Assembly (NCBI RefSeq): GCF_019402665.1
Contig: NZ_VSST01000052.1
Coordinates: 1 to 64,000 of the forward strand
Length of the DNA: 64,000 bases
Direction: 5' to 3'
From: Bradyrhizobium canariense
GTDB taxonomy: Bacteria; Pseudomonadota; Alphaproteobacteria; Rhizobiales; Xanthobacteraceae
In this document: positions 15,943-25,533 of the stretch, one piece after another
Numbering within the stretch: the first letter of the stretch is position 1
Layout: each line of letters begins with the position of its first letter
Program-made: the position numbers and the translations under genes
Notes under the pieces: model-generated
What the model saw: only the letters and a program-made list of their open reading frames with translations
Databases searched by the model: none
What the model was told of the DNA's origin: nothing

Positions 15943-17034
15943 ATGAAACGCCGTACGTTCCTCAAGGGCGGCGCCATGGCCGGCGCGACGACGCTGGTTG
16001 CCGCACCTGCGATCGCGCAAGGCGCGCCCGAGATCAAATGGCGCCTGACCTCCAGCTTCCCGAAGTCGCTGGACACCATCTACGGCACTGCGCAGACCTT
16101 TGCGAAATATGTTGCCGAGGCCACCGACAACAAATTCCAGATCCAGACCTTTGCGGCCGGCGAGCTCGTCCCGGGCCTGCAGGCGCTCGATGCCGTCAGC
16201 ACAGCCTCTGTCGACATGGCGCAGACCCCGCTCTATTTCTACATCGGCAAGGAGCCGGCGCTGGCCTATGCGACCGGCGCGCCGTTCGGCATGAACCATC
16301 GCCATCAGGAATCCTGGTGGCACTTCGGCGGCGGCGCCGACCTCACCAACGAGGCGCTGAAGCCGTTCAAGGCGCATGCGATCCTCTGCGGCAATTCCGG
16401 CACCCAGATGGGCGGCTGGTTCCGCAAGGAGATCAAGACCGTCGACGATCTCAAGGGCCTGAAATTCCGCATCGCCGGCATGGGCGGCCATGTGCTGGCG
16501 CGGCTCGGCGTGGTCCCGCAACAGATCGCGGGCGGCGACATCTATCCGGCGCTGGAGAAGGGCACGATCGATGCGGTCGAATTCGTCGGCCCCTATGACG
16601 ACGAAAAGCTCGGCTTCCAGAAGGTCGCAAAATACTACTACTTCCCGGGCTGGTGGGAGGGCGGCGCCATGTTGCACATGATCGTCAACGACGAAAAGTG
16701 GGCGTCGCTGCCGAAGCAGTACCAGGCGATCGTCAACCAGGCCGCGTCGGCCGCGGGCGCCTGGATGCTCGAGAAATACGACAGCGTGAATCCGGCGGCG
16801 CTGAAGCGGCTGATCGCCAATGGCGCGGAGCTGAAGGCGTTTCCGCAGCCGGTGCTGGAGGCCTGCTACGCCGCGACCCAGGAGCATCTGAACGAGCTCG
16901 CCACCAAGAGCGACCTGTTCAAGCGCACCAAGGAAAGCCACGACGCCTATATGAAGGAGCTGCTGTTCTACACGCAGATCGCGGAGAATTTTTACGATAA
17001 TTATCTGCTCGGCAAGATGCGCAACAAGACCTGA
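15943..17034 (+). CDS. TRAP transporter substrate-binding protein (DctP family)
   Basis: Periplasmic solute receptor of 363 residues with a twin-arginine signal peptide (KRRTFLKGGAMAGATT). The family's binding-site region is seen as LKFRIAGMGGHVLARLG, with the conserved Arg that salt-bridges a carboxylate, followed by DAVEFVGPYDD. It resembles receptors for 2-oxo acids. GGGAGA precedes the ATG. No dctQ or dctM membrane genes are adjacent in this window, so its partner permease must lie elsewhere. Confidence 0.9.
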   Translation: MKRRTFLKGGAMAGATTLVAAPAIAQGAPEIKWRLTSSFPKSLDTIYGTAQTFAKYVAEATDNKFQIQTFAAGELVPGLQALDAVSTASVDMAQTPLYFYIGKEPALAYATGAPFGMNHRHQESWWHFGGGADLTNEALKPFKAHAILCGNSGTQMGGWFRKEIKTVDDLKGLKFRIAGMGGHVLARLGVVPQQIAGGDIYPALEKGTIDAVEFVGPYDDEKLGFQKVAKYYYFPGWWEGGAMLHMIVNDEKWASLPKQYQAIVNQAASAAGAWMLEKYDSVNPAALKRLIANGAELKAFPQPVLEACYAATQEHLNELATKSDLFKRTKESHDAYMKELLFYTQIAENFYDNYLLGKMRNKT

Positions 17035-17156: not shown

Positions 17157-17930
17157 TTAAGCCGCGCCCAAACCCAGCTTCTCGTAAATGCGCCGTGCAT
17201 AGGCGCCGAACGCGTCCGTGGTCTTGAGCGGAAGATCACGCGGGAAGGGCAGGTCGATCGGAAAATAATCGGCCATCTTCGCCGGGCCGGCGGTCAGCAC
17301 GGCGCAGTGCGAGGACAGGAACACGGCTTCCTGAATCGAGTGCGTGATGAAGATGATGGTCTTGCCGCTCTCGCGCCAGATCCGCAGCATCTCCAGGTTC
17401 ATCTGCTCGCGCGTCAAGGCGTCGAGCGCGCCGAACGGCTCGTCCATCAGGATCAGTTTCGGGTCGTGAATGAAGGCGCGCGCGATCGCGGTACGCTGCT
17501 GCATGCCGCCGGACAGCTCTCGCGGATATTTCTGCTCGTAACCGGCAAGACCCACCAGATTGAGCAGATCGCGCGCCCGCTCGCGCGCGGCCCTCATGGG
17601 AAGGCCGACGATCTCCGCCGGCAGCAACACATTGTCCAGGATCGTCCGCCATTTCAGCAGCAGCGCCTGCTGGAATACCATGCCGATGTCGCGGGTCGGA
17701 TCGAACGGGCTTTTGGCATTGCCGATCTTCACCGTGCCGCCGTCGGCGCCGTGCAGGCCGGCCAAGATCTTCATCACTGTGGTCTTGCCGCAGCCGGACG
17801 GGCCGACCAGCGAGACAAGCTCACCCTCCTGCACGTCCATGGTGACGTCGGACACCGCCAGGAATTCGGCGCCGCCGCTACGATAGACCTTGCGGACGCC
17901 TTGCAGGCTGATGAAGGGGTTTGAGCTCAT
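17157..17930 (-). CDS. ABC transporter ATP-binding protein (NitT/TauT type)
   Basis: About 257 residues with all ATPase motifs: Walker A GPSGCGKTT near residue 41, signature LSGGMQQR and Walker B LILMDEPFGALD, then the switch His in IFITHS. Sequence type matches ATPases of nitrate/sulfonate/taurine-like importers. The ATG overlaps the stop of the DHDPS-like gene (ATGA); an in-frame ATG nine bases earlier is possible. It is the last gene of the operon and energises the permease at 20866-21636. Confidence 0.9.
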   Translation of the reverse strand: MSSNPFISLQGVRKVYRSGGAEFLAVSDVTMDVQEGELVSLVGPSGCGKTTVMKILAGLHGADGGTVKIGNAKSPFDPTRDIGMVFQQALLLKWRTILDNVLLPAEIVGLPMRAARERARDLLNLVGLAGYEQKYPRELSGGMQQRTAIARAFIHDPKLILMDEPFGALDALTREQMNLEMLRIWRESGKTIIFITHSIQEAVFLSSHCAVLTAGPAKMADYFPIDLPFPRDLPLKTTDAFGAYARRIYEKLGLGAA

Positions 17931-18982
17931 GCCAGCCATTTATTCAAGTTTGCGGCCACGAAGGCGTCGTCGCTGAGATCTGAATGCTCGCGAGCGACGC
18001 GGTCGATCTCGTCCTTCTGGCCGGGGCTCAGGCCCTCGTTAGGATCGAGGCACCACAGGCCCTGCATCAGGCCCTGCCGTCGCAGCACCTCATGGCAGCC
18101 GGCGATGCAGCCGTGAAAATCGTTGGCGACGTCGAAGAAGGCGCTGTTGCAATCGGTGACGCGGGCATCGAGCGCGAGCAGTTCGGCCGGGACGCTGTCC
18201 TTGTGCCGTGCCGCTTTGCAGCGCTCGAATTGCTTGATCGCGCTCGCCGTCCAGACCGACCAATGGCCGAGCAGACCCCCCTTGAAGTAGGTCCGCGTGG
18301 TGATGCCGTTGTCGCGGAGGTCGAACGGCAGCATCAAATCGAGCAGGATGTGGTCGTCATTGCCGGTATAGAGCGCAACGCGGTCGAGCGCGCCAGCCGC
18401 CGCGACGCCGCGCAGAACATCAAGGGTCCTGTAGCGGTTGAACGGCGCGATCTTGATCGCGATGACATTGTCGATCGCGGCAAAGCGCTGCCAGAACCGG
18501 CTCGACAGGACCACGCCGCCGACGGCCGGCTGGAGATAGAAGCCGACCAGCGGAATCTCGGCCGCGACCGCTGTGCAATGCGCGATGATCTCGTCTTCGG
18601 ACGCGCTCTTCATCGCAGCGAGACTGAGGAGCCCTGCGTGGTAGCCGATGTCGCGCGCGGTGCGGGCTTCAGCGGTGGCCTGCTGGGTCGGGCCGGCAAG
18701 GCCCGCGACCAGCGCCAGCGGACGCTTGGTCCAGTTCGCCGCGGTCTCGGCGGCGAGCTCGAGCACGGGACGATAGAGGCCGACATTGCGGATCGCGAAC
18801 TGCGTGGTGTGCACGCCGACAGCAAGGCCGCCGGAGCCGGCGTCGATGTAATAGCGCGTCAGCGCGCGCTGATGCGTTTTGTCGAGCTGGCGTTCGGCGG
18901 TGAGCGCGAGGGGATGCGCTGGCAGCACGGTGCCGTCGGCGATCAGCTTGCGGATATCGCTGTTGATCTGACTGTGGTGCAT
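17927..18982 (-). CDS. Dihydrodipicolinate synthase/N-acetylneuraminate lyase-family protein
   Basis: 351-residue TIM-barrel aldolase of the DapA family, longer than DapA itself (about 290). A Schiff-base lysine candidate is seen in VIAIKIAPF. The usual GTTGE substrate loop reads GVHTTQF and the catalytic Tyr lies in GFYLQP, so the substrate is unlikely to be aspartate semialdehyde. The start is ATG 18982, six bases after the GNAT stop. Its position inside a transporter operon suggests cleavage of an imported 2-oxo-acid-type compound. Inference only. Confidence 0.82.
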   Translation of the reverse strand: MHHSQINSDIRKLIADGTVLPAHPLALTAERQLDKTHQRALTRYYIDAGSGGLAVGVHTTQFAIRNVGLYRPVLELAAETAANWTKRPLALVAGLAGPTQQATAEARTARDIGYHAGLLSLAAMKSASEDEIIAHCTAVAAEIPLVGFYLQPAVGGVVLSSRFWQRFAAIDNVIAIKIAPFNRYRTLDVLRGVAAAGALDRVALYTGNDDHILLDLMLPFDLRDNGITTRTYFKGGLLGHWSVWTASAIKQFERCKAARHKDSVPAELLALDARVTDCNSAFFDVANDFHGCIAGCHEVLRRQGLMQGLWCLDPNEGLSPGQKDEIDRVAREHSDLSDDAFVAANLNKWLA

Positions 18983-18988
18983 GATGTC

Positions 18989-19810
18989 CTATCCGAATTC
19001 AGGGCCGGCGACGGCGAATGGCATGTCCTCACCCGCGGCTGTGGCGGGGCCGAACCGCATGCGCTGGAACGGCCGTTCGATGCTCCAGCCCGACGCGGTC
19101 AATCCGTCAGGGAACGCGGCTTGCGACGCGACGGCGTCGAGCAGCAGCGGCCCGGTTTCCGATCGTGCGATGGCATCCACCAGGGTCAGCGCTGCTGCCG
19201 TGTTGTCGGCAAATAGCGGGCCGATATGGCGCGCGGTGCGTCCGTCGCGAACCAGCGCGATGGCTCCGTTCGCGGAGACGATGCGTGAGCCGGGACGCCG
19301 AGCGAAGTTGGAGAGCAGGGCGGTTCGATCGAAACCAGTGGCGCGCCGGTCACGCATGCGGAGCGCGTCGAGCGTCGCGGATGAAGGTGCCTGCCCGGAC
19401 GTTGACGCGGGTTTCACCAGTTTGAGGCGGCGCAATTGCAGGGTCGGCGTGAACCCGAGCGGCCCATAGACGGCAGCACCATCCGGCGTTGCGTCGAGCC
19501 AGCTCGTCAGGCCGTTCCTGCGGGCGGTTTCCAGGCAGGCATCGACGAGGCGCGTTGCAAGGCCGCGGCGGCGATGGGTGCCTGATACCAGCACCATGCT
19601 GATCCAGGCATTTTTGCTGGAGTAGGGCAGCAGGGCCGCGGTTGCCACCAGCCGTCTGCCGTCACGGATGCCGAACACGATTCCATCGTGCAGGAAGATG
19701 CGCCAGTCCTCCTCGGTCTGGTTCCAGCGTGCTTCCGTCGACAGCACGAGCCCGGCGATCGCATCGTCGACGCCGAGCTTGATGATGGCCGGCTCGTCAG
19801 TAGCGTCCAT
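18989..19810 (-). CDS. GNAT-family N-acetyltransferase
   Basis: 273 residues, about twice the minimal GNAT size. The acetyl-CoA-binding motif is visible as HRRRGLATRLVDACLETARRNG near residue 80, followed by YGPLGFTP. The C-terminal half contains a second, degenerate domain. The start overlaps the end of the epimerase-like gene by 14 bp, so it is translated as part of the operon. It may acetylate a substrate or intermediate of the pathway. Confidence 0.85.
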   Translation of the reverse strand: MDATDEPAIIKLGVDDAIAGLVLSTEARWNQTEEDWRIFLHDGIVFGIRDGRRLVATAALLPYSSKNAWISMVLVSGTHRRRGLATRLVDACLETARRNGLTSWLDATPDGAAVYGPLGFTPTLQLRRLKLVKPASTSGQAPSSATLDALRMRDRRATGFDRTALLSNFARRPGSRIVSANGAIALVRDGRTARHIGPLFADNTAAALTLVDAIARSETGPLLLDAVASQAAFPDGLTASGWSIERPFQRMRFGPATAAGEDMPFAVAGPEFG

Positions 19811-20834
19811 CGCGCACCTCGTATTTGGTGGGCTTGCCGAGGCTCGGCATGGCGCGGGACACCCAATCCGCGGTCCAGGCGATCAGCTGCTCGGTGTCGA
19901 CGACCGGCAGGCCGAACAGCTCGACGGCCTTGGACGTGTCCGTCAGCCACGCCGTCGGCTGTTCGTTTCCTGTCAGCACCGGCGCGCGGCCGAACCTGGC
20001 GCCGAATCGTGCTGCGAGGTCGCGTACCGCCAAGATCTCGTGGCCGCTGACATTGATCGGCGAGGTCGGCGTCGTGCAATGCGCGAGACAGCGCAGCGCC
20101 TGGGACGAGGCATCGCCCTGCCAGATGAAATTGACATGACCGATGCTGACGTCGATCGGCGTGCCCGTGAGCACCTTCGATGCGATGTCGTGGAGCACGC
20201 CATAGCGCATGTCGATCGCGTAATTGAGGCGGAACAGCCGCCCGGGCGTTCCGAATTTGCGCGAAAAAAACTCGAACATGCGCTCGCGGCCGACGCAGGA
20301 TTGGGCGTATTCGCCGGGCGGGTTCGGCGCCATGTCCTCGCGCGAGCCTTTGCCGTCGACGGGGACGAAGGGATAGATGCAGCCGGTCGAGAACGCCACG
20401 ATCCGCGACGAGGGGAAGGCCTGCGCGACCAGCGCCGGCACGTGCGCATTCATCGCCCAGGTCAGCGACAGATCGCCCTCCGCGCCGAATTTGCGGCCGG
20501 CCATGAAGACGATATTGGGCGCCTTCGGCAGCGTCTGAATCGCGGTCTCGTCCATCAGGTCGCAATTGATGGTCTCGACGCCACGCCCGTGCAGCCAGTC
20601 CTTGACGCCGGCGTCGCTGAAGCGGGCGACGCCAATGACGCGGCGATCGGGCGCTGCGGCTTTGGCAAGCCCCGCCAGCGTCGGCCCCATCTTGCCGGCG
20701 ACGCCAAGGATCATGATGTCGCCCTCGACCCTGGCGAGGTCGTCGATCAATGCCTGGGTCGGCCGGCACAGGAGATCGTCGAGCGCAGCGATATCAGGGA
20801 TGGTCTTCGGCAGTGTCTGGCGGGTCAGGAGCAT
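19797..20834 (-). CDS. NAD-dependent epimerase/dehydratase-like protein (extended SDR)
   Basis: About 345 residues. The Rossmann dinucleotide motif reads GVAGKMGPTLA near residue 45 and an SDR-like serine strand reads FSTGCIYPF. The usual YxxxK catalytic pair is not clear: the corresponding tyrosine lies in EYAQSCVG, with Cys where Lys is expected, so activity may be unusual. ATG 20834 has AGGGA upstream. Second gene of the ABC operon. Confidence 0.8.
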   Translation of the reverse strand: MLLTRQTLPKTIPDIAALDDLLCRPTQALIDDLARVEGDIMILGVAGKMGPTLAGLAKAAAPDRRVIGVARFSDAGVKDWLHGRGVETINCDLMDETAIQTLPKAPNIVFMAGRKFGAEGDLSLTWAMNAHVPALVAQAFPSSRIVAFSTGCIYPFVPVDGKGSREDMAPNPPGEYAQSCVGRERMFEFFSRKFGTPGRLFRLNYAIDMRYGVLHDIASKVLTGTPIDVSIGHVNFIWQGDASSQALRCLAHCTTPTSPINVSGHEILAVRDLAARFGARFGRAPVLTGNEQPTAWLTDTSKAVELFGLPVVDTEQLIAWTADWVSRAMPSLGKPTKYEVRDGRY

Positions 20835-20865
20835 GGTTGTGGTCCCTGGTCTTGGCTTTGACGTT

Positions 20866-21636
20866 TCAGGTCGGTGTTGCGTCACCGACCACGAATATGC
20901 GTTCGAGGGCGAGCACGAAGCCGTAAAGCGCGACGCCGAGCAGCGTCAGCAGCACGACGGCCATCACCATCGCGGGCGTGTCGAGCGATGACTGCACCTG
21001 GATCATGAGGTAGCCGAGCCCGCGCTCGGAGGCGATGAACTCGCCGACGATGGCGCCGGCGACCGCGAGGATGGCGCCGACTTTCATGCCGGAGAAGATG
21101 TAAGGCAGCGATCCCGGCAGCTGGATCTTGCGGAACAGCGTCCAGCGCGAGCCGCGCAGCGATTTGACCAGGTCGAGCAGATCCGGCTCGACCTCGCGCA
21201 AGCCCCGCGCGGTGGTGAGCAGGATCGGGAAGAAGCAGATGCTGAAGGCGATCAGGATGTTCGGCACGATGCCGTAGGAGAACCAGACGATGAGGAGCGG
21301 GCCGAGCGCGACCTTCGGGATCATGTTCAGCGTCACGAACAGCGGCAGCAGCACGAGGCTGATCAGCGGCGCCCAGCTGAAGATGACGGCCAGCGCCACG
21401 CCGACGAATGCGCCGAGCGCAAAGCCGCCGAGGATCTCGATTGCCGTCACCAGCGTATTGGCGCCCCAGGCGTAGCTCGCGGTTCCCAGCGTCTGGATTG
21501 TCGCGAGCGGCGAGGGCAGGATGAACTTCGGCACGTGGAAGGCATCGACCAGGACCTGCCAGAGCACGAGCACGGCAAGGTGCACGATCAGGACGATCGC
21601 AAAGCTGCGCGTATTGCGGGCGCCGTCTCCTGCCAC
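20866..21636 (-). CDS. ABC transporter permease (NitT/TauT type)
   Basis: Inner-membrane permease of about 256 residues with six predicted membrane segments. The coupling-loop region that docks the ATPase is seen as TTARGLREVEPDLLDLVKSLRGSRWTLFRKIQLPGSLPYIFSG in outline, including the EAA-type glycine. I chose GTG 21636, which follows AGGGAG with six-base spacing; the longer frame would start at a TTG inside the palindrome at 21706-21719. It is the first gene of the operon. Confidence 0.88.
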   Translation of the reverse strand: MAGDGARNTRSFAIVLIVHLAVLVLWQVLVDAFHVPKFILPSPLATIQTLGTASYAWGANTLVTAIEILGGFALGAFVGVALAVIFSWAPLISLVLLPLFVTLNMIPKVALGPLLIVWFSYGIVPNILIAFSICFFPILLTTARGLREVEPDLLDLVKSLRGSRWTLFRKIQLPGSLPYIFSGMKVGAILAVAGAIVGEFIASERGLGYLMIQVQSSLDTPAMVMAVVLLTLLGVALYGFVLALERIFVVGDATPT

Positions 21637-21705
21637 CAGTTGCTCCCTGTTGCCAGCGGCCACCTTGCCGCTGGTCGCGAGCCTAACCGTCCCTGAGGGA
21701 AGTTT

Positions 21706-21719
21706 CAACCAGTTGGTTG
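21706..21719. promoter_or_regulatory. Inverted repeat, probable TetR operator of the ABC operon
   Basis: CAACCA-GT-TGGTTG, perfect 6-bp arms, 70 bp upstream of the permease start and immediately after the TetR gene. A similar sequence (CAACCA-AA-CAGTTG, 22372-22385) lies at the TetR gene's own start, which supports one regulator acting at both sites. Confidence 0.6.
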
Positions 21720-21720
21720 A

Positions 21721-22368
21721 TTATGGCCGGAGCGAATGCAGCACGAGATCGGCGACGTGCCGACGGCGGGCGCGGCGCGCGGCCCGGCTCGACAGGTCCT
21801 TGCCGAAGATCGCCGAGAGCGTCGGTGTGTTGGAGAGATAAAAATAGCTGAGGCCCGCGATGGAGATATAGAGCTGGATCGGGTCGATTCCCTTGCGGAA
21901 CATTCCGGCGCGGACGCCCTCGTGAAGGATGTGGGACACGCTCTTCACCAGCGGCGAATGCATCGCCTCCAGCCGCGTCGAGCCGCGGACGTGGCGGGCA
22001 CCGCCACGGTTCTCGTCGTTCAGAAGCACGATGAAATCGGGGTTCGTCGCCAGATAATCGAACGAGGCTTCGATCAGTTTCCGGATCGCCTTTTCCGGCG
22101 GCAGGCCTTCGAGATTGAGCTGGCGTTCCTGCTCGCGGATATCGGCGTAAACCCATTCGAGCACGGCGAGATAGAGCGCGTCCTTGTCGCCGAAATAATG
22201 GTAGACGAGCTGCTTGTTGACGCCGGCGCGCTCCGCGATCTCGTCGACGCGGGCGCCGGCAAAGCCGTGCCGGGCGAACTCCTCGCGCGCCGCGGTGAGC
22301 AGCTTCTTGCGTGTGGCGACCGGGTCGCGCCGCTGCGGCACGGTGTCGCCTGAACGTTTTGCGGGCAT
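21721..22368 (-). CDS. TetR/AcrR-family regulator of the ABC cluster
   Basis: About 215 residues with the TetR N-terminal helix-turn-helix (ARVDEIAERAGVNKQLVYHYFGDKDALY) and a C-terminal domain of the TetR_C type (FIVLLNDENRGGARH). ATG 22368 is chosen; the frame could extend to a TTG at 22389. It lies between the divergent binding-protein gene and the operon, all of which it probably represses until the transported compound is present. Confidence 0.88.
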   Translation of the reverse strand: MPAKRSGDTVPQRRDPVATRKKLLTAAREEFARHGFAGARVDEIAERAGVNKQLVYHYFGDKDALYLAVLEWVYADIREQERQLNLEGLPPEKAIRKLIEASFDYLATNPDFIVLLNDENRGGARHVRGSTRLEAMHSPLVKSVSHILHEGVRAGMFRKGIDPIQLYISIAGLSYFYLSNTPTLSAIFGKDLSSRAARRARRRHVADLVLHSLRP

Positions 22369-22371
22369 TTC

Positions 22372-22385
22372 CAACCAAACAGTTG
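22372..22385. promoter_or_regulatory. Second, degenerate copy of the TetR operator
   Basis: CAACCA-AA-CAGTTG resembles the perfect palindrome at 21706-21719 with the right arm changed at two positions. It lies directly upstream of the regulator's ATG, in the divergent gap shared with the binding-protein gene. Confidence 0.5.
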
Positions 22386-22469
22386 ACAAGTTGAGGGCGG
22401 CCTTGTTGCATTGGTATCCTCACAGGGGGAGAGCGACAAGCCGGGTCGCGGGCAACGAGGAGAGATGCG

Positions 22470-23486
22470 ATGAAGCGTTTGCAGGCGGCGGGCTCGGCCC
22501 TGGCTGTGGCCCTGATGCTCGGATCACCAGTCGTGCCCGCGACCGCGGGCGAAGCGGTCAATCTGATCCTGAACTGGGCGCCGACGGCCGATCACTCGCC
22601 CTATTATTACGCCAAGGCGCAAGGCTGGTACGAGAAGGCGGGCATCGATCTGACCATCGAGGTCGGCAAGGGCTCCGGCGTCTCCGCCGCAAAGGTCGGC
22701 TCCGGTGGCTCGCCCTTCGGCGTCGCCGATCTCGCCACCATGCTGGTGGCGAAGAGCAAGGGCGCTGACGCTGTTGCCGTAATGAGCGTCTACGCCAACA
22801 CCGGCCAGACCTTCTACTGGCTGAAGAGCTACGGCGTGAACGGGGTGAAGGATTTTGCCGGCCACAAGATCGGCAATCCGCCCGGGGACGCCTCGCGCGT
22901 GATGTGGCCGGCTTTCGCCAAGGCTGCAGGGCTTGCACCCGACTCTGTCGGCTTCGTCAATGTCGGGCCGACCGCGAAGATCGCCGCGCTGAAGAGCCAT
23001 ACCGTCGACATCATCAGCGACTTCTACAACGAGCACGATTTGAAGGTGATCGAGTTCGGAAGCGATCTCGGCTACGTCAACTGGAAGGACATCGGGCTCA
23101 ACCCTTACGGCAATTCGCTGATCGTCAACGGCGGCTATCTGCAGAAGAATCCCAAGCTGGTCGAGGAGTTCGTGCGCGTCACGCAAAAGGCCTTTGCGAC
23201 CTGCGTCGCCGACGCCGCACCCTGCCTGAAGGCGTTGCTCGACCAGGTCTCCGGTCTCGACAAGGAGAACCAGGAGCGCCAGTGGGAGCGCATCAAGTTT
23301 TTGATGACGGATGAGTTCACCACGACGAAGGCGCTCGGCTGGATCGACGGCGAGCGGATGAAGAAGGACTACGAACTGGTCCAGACCTATCTCGGCATGG
23401 AAAAGCCGTTCGACGTCACGACGGCGTTCACGACCAAGATGCTCGATCCCGCCGTCAAGATGGATGCGAGCAAGGTGAAGAAGTAG
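22470..23486 (+). CDS. ABC transporter substrate-binding protein (NMT1/SsuA-like)
   Basis: Exported solute receptor of 338 residues. The signal peptide ends near PATAG; the mature part opens NLILNWAPTADHSPYYYAKAQGWYEKAGI, the hallmark of NMT1/THI5-like receptors for pyrimidine precursors and related small molecules. GAGGAG lies seven bases before the ATG. It is divergent from its TetR and presumably delivers substrate to the permease/ATPase pair at 17157-21636. The ligand is unknown. Confidence 0.9.
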   Translation: MKRLQAAGSALAVALMLGSPVVPATAGEAVNLILNWAPTADHSPYYYAKAQGWYEKAGIDLTIEVGKGSGVSAAKVGSGGSPFGVADLATMLVAKSKGADAVAVMSVYANTGQTFYWLKSYGVNGVKDFAGHKIGNPPGDASRVMWPAFAKAAGLAPDSVGFVNVGPTAKIAALKSHTVDIISDFYNEHDLKVIEFGSDLGYVNWKDIGLNPYGNSLIVNGGYLQKNPKLVEEFVRVTQKAFATCVADAAPCLKALLDQVSGLDKENQERQWERIKFLMTDEFTTTKALGWIDGERMKKDYELVQTYLGMEKPFDVTTAFTTKMLDPAVKMDASKVKK

Positions 23487-23721: not shown

Positions 23722-24420
23722 ATGGAGGCTGCAGTAAAACCTCAACGCCAAATGGTTCGCCTGCGCGGGCGCTCCTATGTGGCCTTCGTGTTCGTGCCGA
23801 CGGTTCCCATCCAGGACTGGCTGCAGGAGATCGACACCACCATCGCGCGCTCGCCGGGCTTCTTTGCCGGTCGCCCCGTGGTGATCGACCTGTCCTCGGT
23901 CGATCTCAGCCAGTCCGGCATCGGGCATCTGCTCACCAGCCTTCAGGACCGCAACATTCGCGTGCTCGGGATCGAGGGCGTGGAGGAGGGCCGGTTGACC
24001 CCCATGATGCCGCCGCTGCTTTCGGGCGGGCGGAGCTGCGTCATCGAACCGAGCGCTCCCAAGAAGGTTGAGGCGAAGGTCGAGACCAAGCCGACCTCCT
24101 TGCTGCTCGAAAGCCCCGTTCGGTCGGGCCAGACTGTGATCTTCCCCGAAGGCGACGTCACCATTCTCGGCTCGGTCGGCTCCGGCGCCGAAGTCGTCGC
24201 CGGCGGCTCCATCCACATCTACGGCGCGCTACGCGGCCGCGCCATGGCGGGCGTGAACGGTCACACGAGCGCACGCATCTATTGTCAGAAGATCGAGGCC
24301 GAACTGCTTGCAATCGATGGCTTTTACCAGACCGCCGACGATATCGACGCGGCCCTGCGCGGCAAGCCGGCTCAGGCCTGGCTCCAGGGCAACACCATGC
24401 GAATTACTGCGCTGAACTGA
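23722..24420 (+). CDS. minC: Septum site-determining protein MinC
   Basis: Inhibitor of FtsZ ring formation, 232 residues. The N-terminal FtsZ-binding domain runs to about residue 105, and the C-terminal beta-helix that binds MinD shows the repeated GDVTILGSVGSGAEVVAGGSIHIYG pattern. It is the first gene of minCDE, 19 bp before minD. A consensus CtrA site sits upstream. The ribosome-binding site is weak. Confidence 0.95.
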   Translation: MEAAVKPQRQMVRLRGRSYVAFVFVPTVPIQDWLQEIDTTIARSPGFFAGRPVVIDLSSVDLSQSGIGHLLTSLQDRNIRVLGIEGVEEGRLTPMMPPLLSGGRSCVIEPSAPKKVEAKVETKPTSLLLESPVRSGQTVIFPEGDVTILGSVGSGAEVVAGGSIHIYGALRGRAMAGVNGHTSARIYCQKIEAELLAIDGFYQTADDIDAALRGKPAQAWLQGNTMRITALN

Positions 24421-24439
24421 CCAGAAGGAGATTTCAGAG

Positions 24440-25255
24440 ATGGCCAAGGTACTGGTCGTGACGTCAGGCAAGGGGGGCGTCGGCAAGACCACGACGACCG
24501 CCGCACTGGGGGCTGCGCTCGCGCAACGCGGCGAAAAGGTCGTGGTCGTCGATTTCGACGTCGGCTTGCGCAACCTTGACCTCGTGATGGGAGCCGAACG
24601 CCGCGTCGTGTTCGATCTCATCAACGTGGTGCAGGGCGTCGCAAAGCTGCCGCAGGCCCTGATCAAGGACAAGCGGTTGGAGAACCTCTGGCTGCTGCCG
24701 GCCTCGCAAACCCGCGACAAGGACGCGCTGACCGAAGAGGGCGTGGGCAAGGTCATCGATGATCTGCGCAGCCGTTTCGACTGGGTGATCTGCGACAGCC
24801 CGGCCGGCATCGAACGCGGCGCCTCCATGGCGATGCGCTTTGCCGACGAAGCCGTGATCGTCACCAATCCCGAAGTCTCCTCGGTGCGCGATTCCGATCG
24901 CATCATCGGCATGCTCGATTCGAAGACGGTGCGGGCCGAGAAGGGCGAGCGGGTCGAGAAGCACATTCTCATTACCCGCTATGATCCCTCGCGCGCGGCG
25001 CGCGGCGAGATGCTGACCATCGAGGACATTCTCGAAATTCTTGCAACACCGTTGCTCGGCATCATCCCGGAGAGCCAGGACGTGCTGCGCGCCTCCAACG
25101 TCGGCACGCCCGTGACGCTGTCGAACGCGGAAGGCGCACCGGCGCGGGCCTATATCGACGCCGCCCGCCGGCTGTGCGGCGACACCGTGCCGATGCAGGT
25201 GCCGACCGAGCGCAAGGGCTTCATGGACCGCCTGCTGCGACGGAGGGCCGCATGA
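24440..25255 (+). CDS. minD: Septum site-determining ATPase MinD
   Basis: Membrane-associated Walker-type ATPase, 271 residues, that recruits MinC to the membrane. The deviant Walker A motif GKGGVGKTT lies at residues 10-18, followed by switch residues in [12 protein letters not shown] and [12 protein letters not shown]. The C-terminal amphipathic membrane-targeting helix is [21 protein letters not shown] precedes the ATG. The stop codon overlaps the minE start. Confidence 0.97.
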
Positions 25256-25533
25256 GCATGGGTCTGCTTCGGCTTCTCCGCGGCAACAAGGCCTCTGCAC
25301 CCGTCGCACGCGAACGGTTGCAGATCCTGCTTGCCCATGAACGCGGACTGCGCGGCCAGCCCGACCTGCTCGGTGTGCTGCGTGAGGAAATCCTCGCGGT
25401 CGTTTCCAGGCACGTCACGCTGGACCCGACCAAGGTCATCGTCCGGCTCGATCGCGGCGACGAGGTCTCGACCCTCGAGGTCGATATCGAGGTGCCCAAC
25501 GATTTCGAGCGCAAGCGCGCGGCGGCCGGCTAG
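25252..25533 (+). CDS. minE: Cell division topological specificity factor MinE
   Basis: 93 residues. Drives MinD off the membrane and so produces the pole-to-pole oscillation that places the septum at mid-cell. The anti-MinCD segment ([13 protein letters not shown]) and the dimerisation domain ([13 protein letters not shown]) are both evident. The ATG overlaps the minD stop (ATGA) and has CGGAGG upstream. A terminator follows. Confidence 0.96.

Follow-up and report, generated by a model that had tools for sequence, protein, structure and literature searches.

The seven genes at positions 17157-23486 of the window (the whole 64,000-nucleotide stretch of Bradyrhizobium canariense DNA that was analysed) very probably form a co-regulated catabolic module, and it is moderately likely that this is a TetR-controlled, lyase-based module for substrate-inducible uptake and catabolism. 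The module is a variant assembled from known superfamilies, and its genes are co-conserved far above chance. All seven ORFs listed in the initial annotation are present, and all but the SDR gene match known Pfam families (NMT1, TetR_N plus TetR_C_29, BPD_transp_1, GNAT, DHDPS and ABC_tran). The ORF coordinates also agree with the tight packing described there (overlaps of 14 bp and 4-13 bp): the SDR and GNAT ORFs overlap by 14 bp (19797-19810), a gap of 6 bp separates the GNAT gene from the DapA-like gene, and the DapA-like and ATPase ORFs overlap by 13 bp, or by 4 bp if the ATPase begins at its second ATG. The SDR ORF opens at GTG 20885; its start is likely ATG 20834, because the ORFs at loci L040 and L113 are just 345 aa, the equal length, and a permease/SDR overlap is therefore not required. 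Likewise, the permease start given by the ORF caller, TTG 21708, falls within the predicted TetR operator, and for this reason we infer that the true start is probably GTG 21636, behind AGGGAG.

Relatives of the DapA-like gene number at least 590, and co-conservation was assessed at 80 of them, comprising 26 loci of the Bradyrhizobium clade and 54 more distant loci, 17 of the latter being shorter than 17 kb. The results showed that, among the matches listed, all seven families occur together at 25/26 Bradyrhizobium-clade and 20/54 more distant loci, so that the recurrence of the receptor/TetR/permease/SDR/GNAT/DapA-like/ATPase set holds, and the set is found widely rather than being confined to this genome. 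The SDR, GNAT and DapA-like genes are found together at 26/26 and 33/54 loci, respectively, and the ATPase at 26/26 Bradyrhizobium-clade loci, again among the matches listed. By tblastn at E<=1e-20 in the 54 more distant loci (17 of them <17 kb), no GNAT was found in 20 and no SDR in 8. Among 149 family genomes, the SDR is present in 29/29 DapA-like-positive genomes versus 12/120 others (Fisher p 1.2e-21, n=149), and the GNAT, present in 31, is in 27/29 versus 4/120. At 68 of the 80 loci listed, no more than 3 kb separates the SDR gene from the DapA-like gene. Of 20 plasmid records, 18 have sufficient length to judge, and in these (four phyla) the distance is <1 kb; the two genes adjoin in Pseudomonadota, Actinomycetota, Bacillota and Planctomycetota. 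Identity matrices of the DapA-like and SDR proteins covary across 27 loci (r 0.78, reached by 0 of 2000 permutations), a correlation to which shared organismal descent contributes. The seven-gene layout is one form of a wider module, of which the SDR and DapA-like genes are the most constant part.

The SDR gene (19797..20834, reverse strand) encodes an extended-SDR-like protein for which no Pfam or NCBIfam match was found at E<=0.01. Its nearest solved structure, in both sequence and fold, is TerB (Foldseek E 1.4e-17), to which the predicted model (pLDDT 94.2) gives TM-scores of 0.76/0.85. With TerB, an NADP-dependent oxidoreductase, and with GalE (3EHE) and other extended SDRs it shares the fold, the glycine motif, R71, the Ser/Thr and the Tyr. 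Alignment of 37 sequences showed that the GxxGxxG glycines of the Rossmann fold (G44, G47 and G50) and Y176 are present in 37/37. Unlike TerB and GalE-type SDRs, however, all 37 have Cys (35/37) or Val (2/37) at position 180, the lysine of YxxxK, and none has Lys; the lysine is also lacking (0/11) in a second alignment that includes eight sequences from other phyla. The missing lysine reported in the initial annotation is therefore real, as is seen where solved GalE reads YGASK against YANSC in the alignment. K48, K115 and R183 are invariant in the alignment of 37.

The DapA-like gene (17927..18982, reverse strand) encodes a protein of the DHDPS/NAL superfamily (PF00701; DapA, NanA, KdgD), with 351 residues compared to about 290-310 in that superfamily. 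It passes the DHDPS Pfam cut-off of 22.1 with only 35.1 bits. Its model (pLDDT 92.8) is a TIM-barrel that matches DHDPS 3eb2 (Foldseek E 1.2e-13), and its identity to the best 50 Foldseek matches is 14-22%. Besides this fold, it shares with the superfamily the Schiff-base lysine K177, which is invariant (41/41, and 10/10 in a second alignment with seven sequences from other phyla) and aligns in sequence with the lysine of 1XKY and 8U8W, the catalytic-position tyrosine Y149 (39/41), and the invariant ND of the GND motif. The superfamily typically has a (T/S)TGE carboxylate-binding loop. Here the loop reads GVHTTQF, exactly as first annotated, with H58 at the place of the first Thr/Ser and a variable T59 (T 26, S 13, A 2; n=41), and V154 stands opposite an Arg of 1XKY that we take to be the DapA substrate arginine. 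Membership of the named DapA or NanA families was rejected, the scores being far beneath the cut-offs (16.9 bits against 206.15 for TIGR00674, DapA proper). The initial annotation took the changed loop and the missing SDR lysine as signs that the chemistry may be new; since the Schiff-base lysine and tyrosine are kept, however, a standard class-I lyase reaction with a different substrate would be enough. Judging from these residues, the DapA-like protein is quite probably a class-I lyase.

The genes around the SDR-DapA pair were also surveyed. In other phyla they include carbohydrate ABC transporters, sugar phosphate isomerase/epimerase, Gfo/Idh oxidoreductase and acetylxylan esterase, and neighbours of catabolic type (Gfo/Idh, AP_endonuc_2, amidase and hydroxyacid dehydrogenase) are repeated; amidases are near 14 of the 54 more distant loci listed and a CN-hydrolase is near L103. 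Levoglucosan and 3-keto-glycoside pathways pair an oxidoreductase with AP_endonuc_2-type elimination enzymes, a parallel to these neighbours; neither a DapA-like lyase nor an SDR-DapA pair is known to us from these pathways. On the strength of the neighbouring genes, a substrate of the oxidised-sugar type is plausible, if slightly on the doubtful side. Neighbours not of carbohydrate type are CoA-transferase and enoyl-CoA hydratase in Rhodococcus and Glaciihabitans, and serine ammonia-lyase and peptidase in Prescottella. Two haloarchaeal plasmids carry the SDR without a DapA-like match, beside a DegT-family aminotransferase, an arrangement that resembles biosynthesis more. A SAM methyltransferase and an asparagine synthase-related gene are near the Tistrella cluster. 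Pfam searches of ten further neighbours found no family for four and named no pathway for the others; the profile of the enolase-like protein F7 matched no solved structure at E<=0.001, and a search of the own genome at E<=1e-15, run without a positive control, revealed nothing related to F8, the second TIM-barrel enzyme.

A related cluster is present on contig 84 of the same genome (L039), with DUF993, Gfo/Idh, enolase-like and AP_endonuc_2 genes, and the Nitratireductor locus L153 is a cluster of the same four kinds. The L039 cluster shares with the window a related TetR (50%), ATPase (47%), permease (37%) and receptor (29%), and DUF993 is near the DapA-like gene at 8 of the 54 more distant loci listed. 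However, the L039 cluster has another enzyme core, and scanning it at <=2 mismatches gave no copy of the window's operator. No described function of DUF993 was found in the open-licence PMC literature.

One alternative is an amino-sugar or nonulosonic acid variant, in which the DapA-like protein would act like N-acetylneuraminate lyase on a keto acid derived from an amino sugar, the GNAT would N-acetylate the product at its free amino group, and interconversion of the sugar would fall to the SDR and AP_endonuc_2 proteins. The GNAT (18989..19810, reverse strand) is a two-domain acetyltransferase (Acetyltransf_1 and Acetyltransf_18), and its dedicated presence in DapA-like-positive genomes is consistent with this alternative, as are the amidase, CN-hydrolase and haloarchaeal DegT neighbours. 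The family profile has NAL 8u8w as its best PDB match (40.7 bits versus 37.9 for the best DHDPS), but this gap is trivial, the single sequence ranks DHDPS 3pud first (36.4 versus 26.8 bits for NAL), and the loop is unlike that of both NAL and DHDPS. Nor were sialic-acid genes noticed among the annotated neighbours. The amino-sugar variant is considered unlikely.

The importer comprises a divergent NMT1/THI5-like periplasmic substrate-binding protein of 338 aa (22470..23486, forward strand; PF09084, 137.5 bits versus a cut-off of 20.5), an ABC permease (20866..21708, reverse strand; PF00528, 94.1 bits) and the ATPase of the same importer (17157..17939, reverse strand; PF00005, 109.5 bits). The closest solved chains of the receptor are 4NMY, a solute-binding protein, and 3IX1, an N-formyl-aminomethylpyrimidine binding protein. 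Among named PDB entries, the closest relative of the receptor is a pyrimidine-binding protein, which speaks against a sugar substrate. Membership of the SsuA or taurine-receptor families was rejected, the scores being far under the cut-offs. A TRAP receptor gene at 15943-17034 was rejected as a part of the system, being present at just 11/26 Bradyrhizobium-clade and 1/54 other listed loci. Elsewhere the transporter beside the SDR-DapA pair differs, being of TTT (tripartite tricarboxylate), sugar ABC or MFS type, with the TTT-type genes F9, F13 and F22 assigned by eye; others carry this annotation in their records, among them the TTT transporter that adjoins the pair in Nitratireductor. Because other transporter types adjoin the pair, the pathway cannot be defined by its receptor.

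The regulator (21721..22389, reverse strand; TetR_N and TetR_C_29) is RutR-like and related to RutR; its identification as RutR itself was rejected, its score being 69.2 bits against an equivalog cut-off of 368. A predicted TetR operator, the 7-2-7 palindrome TCAACCA-GT-TGGTTGA (21705..21720), abuts the TetR stop codon upstream of the permease gene. An exact match occurs once in the 8.56 Mb genome, at this place. At <=2 mismatches the genome gave 9 matches, with two sites counted on both strands, versus 4 for a reversed-pattern control; these are not clearly over the control, and the exact hit alone stands out. A weaker operator-like site with 3 mismatches, CCAACCAAACAGTTGA (22371..22386), lies in the TetR/receptor intergenic region and may be a chance occurrence; at its position L066, L095, L098, L110, L150 and L152 carry sites with 1-2 mismatches.

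Of 55 loci examined, 21 have the predicted operator (TCAACCA-N2-TGGTTGA) upstream of cluster genes, and scanning found no site with <=2 mismatches in the other 34. Such a site is upstream of the permease gene at 25/26 Bradyrhizobium-clade loci listed. The first scan used a motif that was not a strict palindrome, on one strand and with 20 permuted controls, and gave 32 sites at <=3 mismatches versus a mean of 1.3 (max 5). The scan was redone with the 7-2-7 pattern and 30 permuted half-sites as controls, and showed 36 sites at <=2 mismatches, some overlapping one another, versus a mean of 1.2 (max 12). The counts rest on this threshold because the signal at <=3 mismatches was weak (89 versus a mean of 17, max 114). 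The sites of L078 and L093 and one each in L116 and L119 are away from the cluster. Two loci not used to find the motif have sites at the expected places, L150 (2 and 3 mismatches) and L152 (2 and 2); no operator with <=2 mismatches was found in L148, L153, L039 or nine non-proteobacterial loci. A simple palindrome search of 19 intergenic stretches, that of the window included, returned none for the window.

The regulator and receptor bear on a second alternative, in which the NMT1 receptor and the RutR-like TetR would serve the salvage of a thiamine pyrimidine or other N-heterocycle whose ring the enzymes would open. The closeness of 3IX1 to the receptor and the likeness of the TetR to RutR are in line with it, as is the predicted operator, whose form resembles the RutR site, a palindrome of roughly 16 bp according to PMC10891134; however, the other transporter types that adjoin the SDR-DapA pair elsewhere argue against pyrimidine salvage, and neither thiamine nor dihydropyrimidinase genes were noticed among the neighbours. 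This alternative is improbable. Least probable is a biosynthetic or detoxifying set, in which the pair would build or modify a compound whose precursor the ABC genes import: TerB is a natural-product enzyme, and the Tistrella and haloarchaeal DegT neighbours would fit, but the importer, the local repressor and the repeated catabolic neighbours point rather to catabolism.

Under the favoured reading of an inducible uptake-and-catabolism module, a TetR dimer would keep the 7-2-7 operators shut as long as it has bound neither the substrate nor a product. A small hydroxy or keto acid, perhaps derived from a carbohydrate, would be brought in by the importer with its NMT1-type receptor, permease and ATPase; the SDR would bind NAD(P) and alter a hydroxyl or keto carbon in its oxidation state or stereochemistry, and the GNAT would acetylate an amine or hydroxyl on an intermediate. 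K177 of the DapA-like protein could then form a Schiff base with a 2-oxo acid intermediate, followed by cleavage (or dehydration), and the product, a keto acid such as pyruvate, would enter central metabolism. Binding of the 2-oxo acid carboxylate is not assured, because the (T/S)TGE-type loop is changed and T59 varies. More tentatively, and rather doubtfully, the genes may represent an undescribed pathway of at least four bacterial phyla, in which a lysine-free SDR, perhaps using K115 or K48 instead, supplies a DapA-type lyase with a new loop, the C-C cleavage lies outside the enzyme list, and the two TetR/NMT1 clusters are halves or variants of one sugar-acid route.

The initial annotation knew of no described pathway with this gene set, and in the open-licence PMC literature no published pathway with the SDR/GNAT/DapA-like set was found. 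In the annotated records seen, the SDR and DapA-like genes are named at superfamily level only. The substrate of either protein would inform the annotation of many genomes, given that the DapA-like gene has at least 590 relatives, and would allow a test of SDR function in the absence of the lysine. Ligand screening with the TetR and its predicted operator provides a direct handle on the substrate, and the cluster may widen the range of compounds that rhizobia eat.

The window lies on contig 104 of the 8.56 Mb genome, and an ORF check of the seven-gene cluster at 17157–23486 showed that all seven genes were as the initial annotation had described them. The receptor gene (22470–23486, plus strand; ORF and family scan) is followed on the minus strand by genes for a TetR regulator, a permease, an SDR-like protein, a GNAT protein, a DapA-like protein and an ATPase, in that order. 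Family scans backed these assignments, with both core enzymes, the DapA-like and SDR-like proteins, remote from named families. By eye, a TRAP/DctP-type receptor gene (15943–17034) adjoins the ATPase gene convergently and was found in 11 of 26 Bradyrhizobium-clade loci; no TRAP permease was seen beside it in the window ORF list. Just past the cluster's receptor gene, 23722–25533 holds what we take, by eye and from their motifs, to be minC-, minD- and minE-like genes.

The DapA-like protein scored 35 bits against PF00701, and its structure model (pLDDT 92.8) matched DHDPS/NAL structures at 14–22% identity among the best 50 matches. Across 41 sequences K177, N208 and D209 were invariant and Y149 was Tyr in 39. 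In the changed carboxylate loop GVHTTQF, already pointed out from the sequence, H58, T60 and Q61 never differed, and T59 did. No Pfam or NCBIfam model matched the SDR-like protein at E ≤ 0.01; its structure model (pLDDT 94.2) matched TerB and GalE-type enzymes, and it is named SDR-type because of these matches. The reported lack of the expected YxxxK lysine was likewise general: in 37 sequences the Tyr was invariant and the lysine position was Cys in 35 and Val in two, with K48, K115 and R183 invariant. By the defining tests, the two enzymes are neither DapA proper nor a standard SDR.

The cluster is real, conserved and probably an uptake and catabolic module. The DapA-like gene was present in 29 of 149 same-family genomes (E ≤ 1e-20) and in 12 of 398 genomes sampled across the phylum (E ≤ 1e-40), eight of the 12 being of the same genus. 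A scan of named genomes gave at least 590 relatives, the closest among the matches listed being from Bradyrhizobium, and the best 80 were taken for locus analysis. At E ≤ 1e-6, where receptor and ABC counts also take in a second, more distant type, the proposed search for co-conserved sets showed that all seven families recur in every Bradyrhizobium-clade locus but one (25 of 26; in L063 no TetR was found) and in 20 of the 54 more distant ones, and that SDR, GNAT and DapA occur together in 26/26 and 33/54, respectively. At E ≤ 1e-20 the 54 loci contained DapA (54), SDR (46), ATPase (35), permease (35), GNAT (34), receptor (33) and TetR (32), counts that are minima because 17 of these loci are shorter than 17 kb. 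Among the 149 family genomes, SDR was present in 29/29 DapA-positive against 12/120 DapA-negative genomes, and GNAT in 27/29 against 4/120. DapA and SDR identities covaried (r 0.78, 27 loci), part of which is expected from shared descent alone. The GNAT gene (18989–19810) is 77–85% identical in close relatives (L040–L051), compared with about 89–99% for its neighbours, suggesting that it evolves more quickly than the other genes of the operon.

The cluster is probably under TetR control. A predicted operator, the 7-2-7 palindrome TCAACCA-N2-TGGTTGA, lies immediately after the TetR stop codon (21705–21720) and is the sole exact match in the whole genome. Across 55 loci, made up of the window and the more distant 54, the motif had 36 sites with at most two mismatches, a count that is not independent because it was first spotted in some of the same loci; 30 permuted half-sites averaged 1.2 such sites, and none exceeded 12. 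At least one such site was present in 21 of the 55 loci, in most cases ahead of the permease, SDR, TetR or receptor gene. In L072, which has DapA after TetR and its SDR at another place, the site lies upstream of DapA. Loci from Tistrella (two and three mismatches) and Sulfitobacter (two and two), which had no part in finding the motif, carried sites at both expected places. No site with at most two mismatches was found in L148, the Nitratireductor locus, the contig-84 cluster of the window's own genome or the nine non-proteobacterial loci. In form, the predicted operator resembles the RutR site, described in PMC10891134 as palindromic and about 16 bp long.

The SDR–DapA pair extends beyond Proteobacteria. 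The DapA-like protein had 20 matches in plasmid records, two being fragments too short for a neighbour call; in all 18 others, including Streptomyces, Rhodococcus, Glaciihabitans, Paenibacillus, Mesobacillus and the planctomycete Aquisphaera, an SDR match lay within 1 kb. Three haloarchaeal plasmid records had SDR without a DapA-like match, and in both of the two inspected a DegT-family aminotransferase preceded SDR. GNAT adjoins SDR also in Aquisphaera, Tistrella and Sulfitobacter. The transporter beside the pair varies by locus (NMT1-type ABC, TTT, carbohydrate ABC or MFS), and neighbours in some loci include sugar phosphate isomerase/epimerase and Gfo/Idh oxidoreductase (on the opposite strand in Aquisphaera), hydroxyacid dehydrogenase, acetylxylan esterase, CoA-transferase, enoyl-CoA hydratase and serine ammonia-lyase. 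Genes for LacI, CoA-transferase, enoyl-CoA hydratase and FAD oxidoreductase lie near the pair in both the Rhodococcus and the Glaciihabitans plasmids.

An enolase-superfamily gene (F7) was close to the DapA-like gene in 23 of the 54 more distant loci, AP_endonuc_2 families F8 and F12 in 19 and eight, DUF993 in eight, Gfo/Idh in eight and amidases in 14. F7 has KxK and a conserved Lys further on, lysines that, as we read them, resemble those of the muconate-lactonizing/epimerase group. In the window's own genome, relatives of F7, F12, DUF993 and Gfo/Idh are grouped on contig 84 in an NMT1-ABC-type cluster (L039 2407–10911; TetR-permease-receptor-ATPase-F7-Gfo/Idh-DUF993-AP_endonuc_2). The TetR of this cluster shares 50% identity with that of the window, and the ATPase 47%. 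Of the candidates scored, contig 84 also had the strongest DNA matches, self-matches aside, to the window ATPase, TetR and permease. DUF993 was present in 24/29 DapA-positive against 41/120 other genomes (p 2e-6); in six of the 24 genomes with both, it and the DapA-like gene are no more than 7 kb apart. We infer that the two clusters may serve related substrates or one route. A genome of the same genus (G138) has a DUF993 match with no match to DapA-like, SDR or GNAT, implying that the two clusters can occur apart.

In the open-licence PMC literature, no publication was found on DUF993 or describing this gene set. In its mode of action the module may resemble those sugar-acid pathways in which a class-I lyase is the final enzyme. 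Its interest lies partly in the wide distribution of the SDR–DapA core pair.
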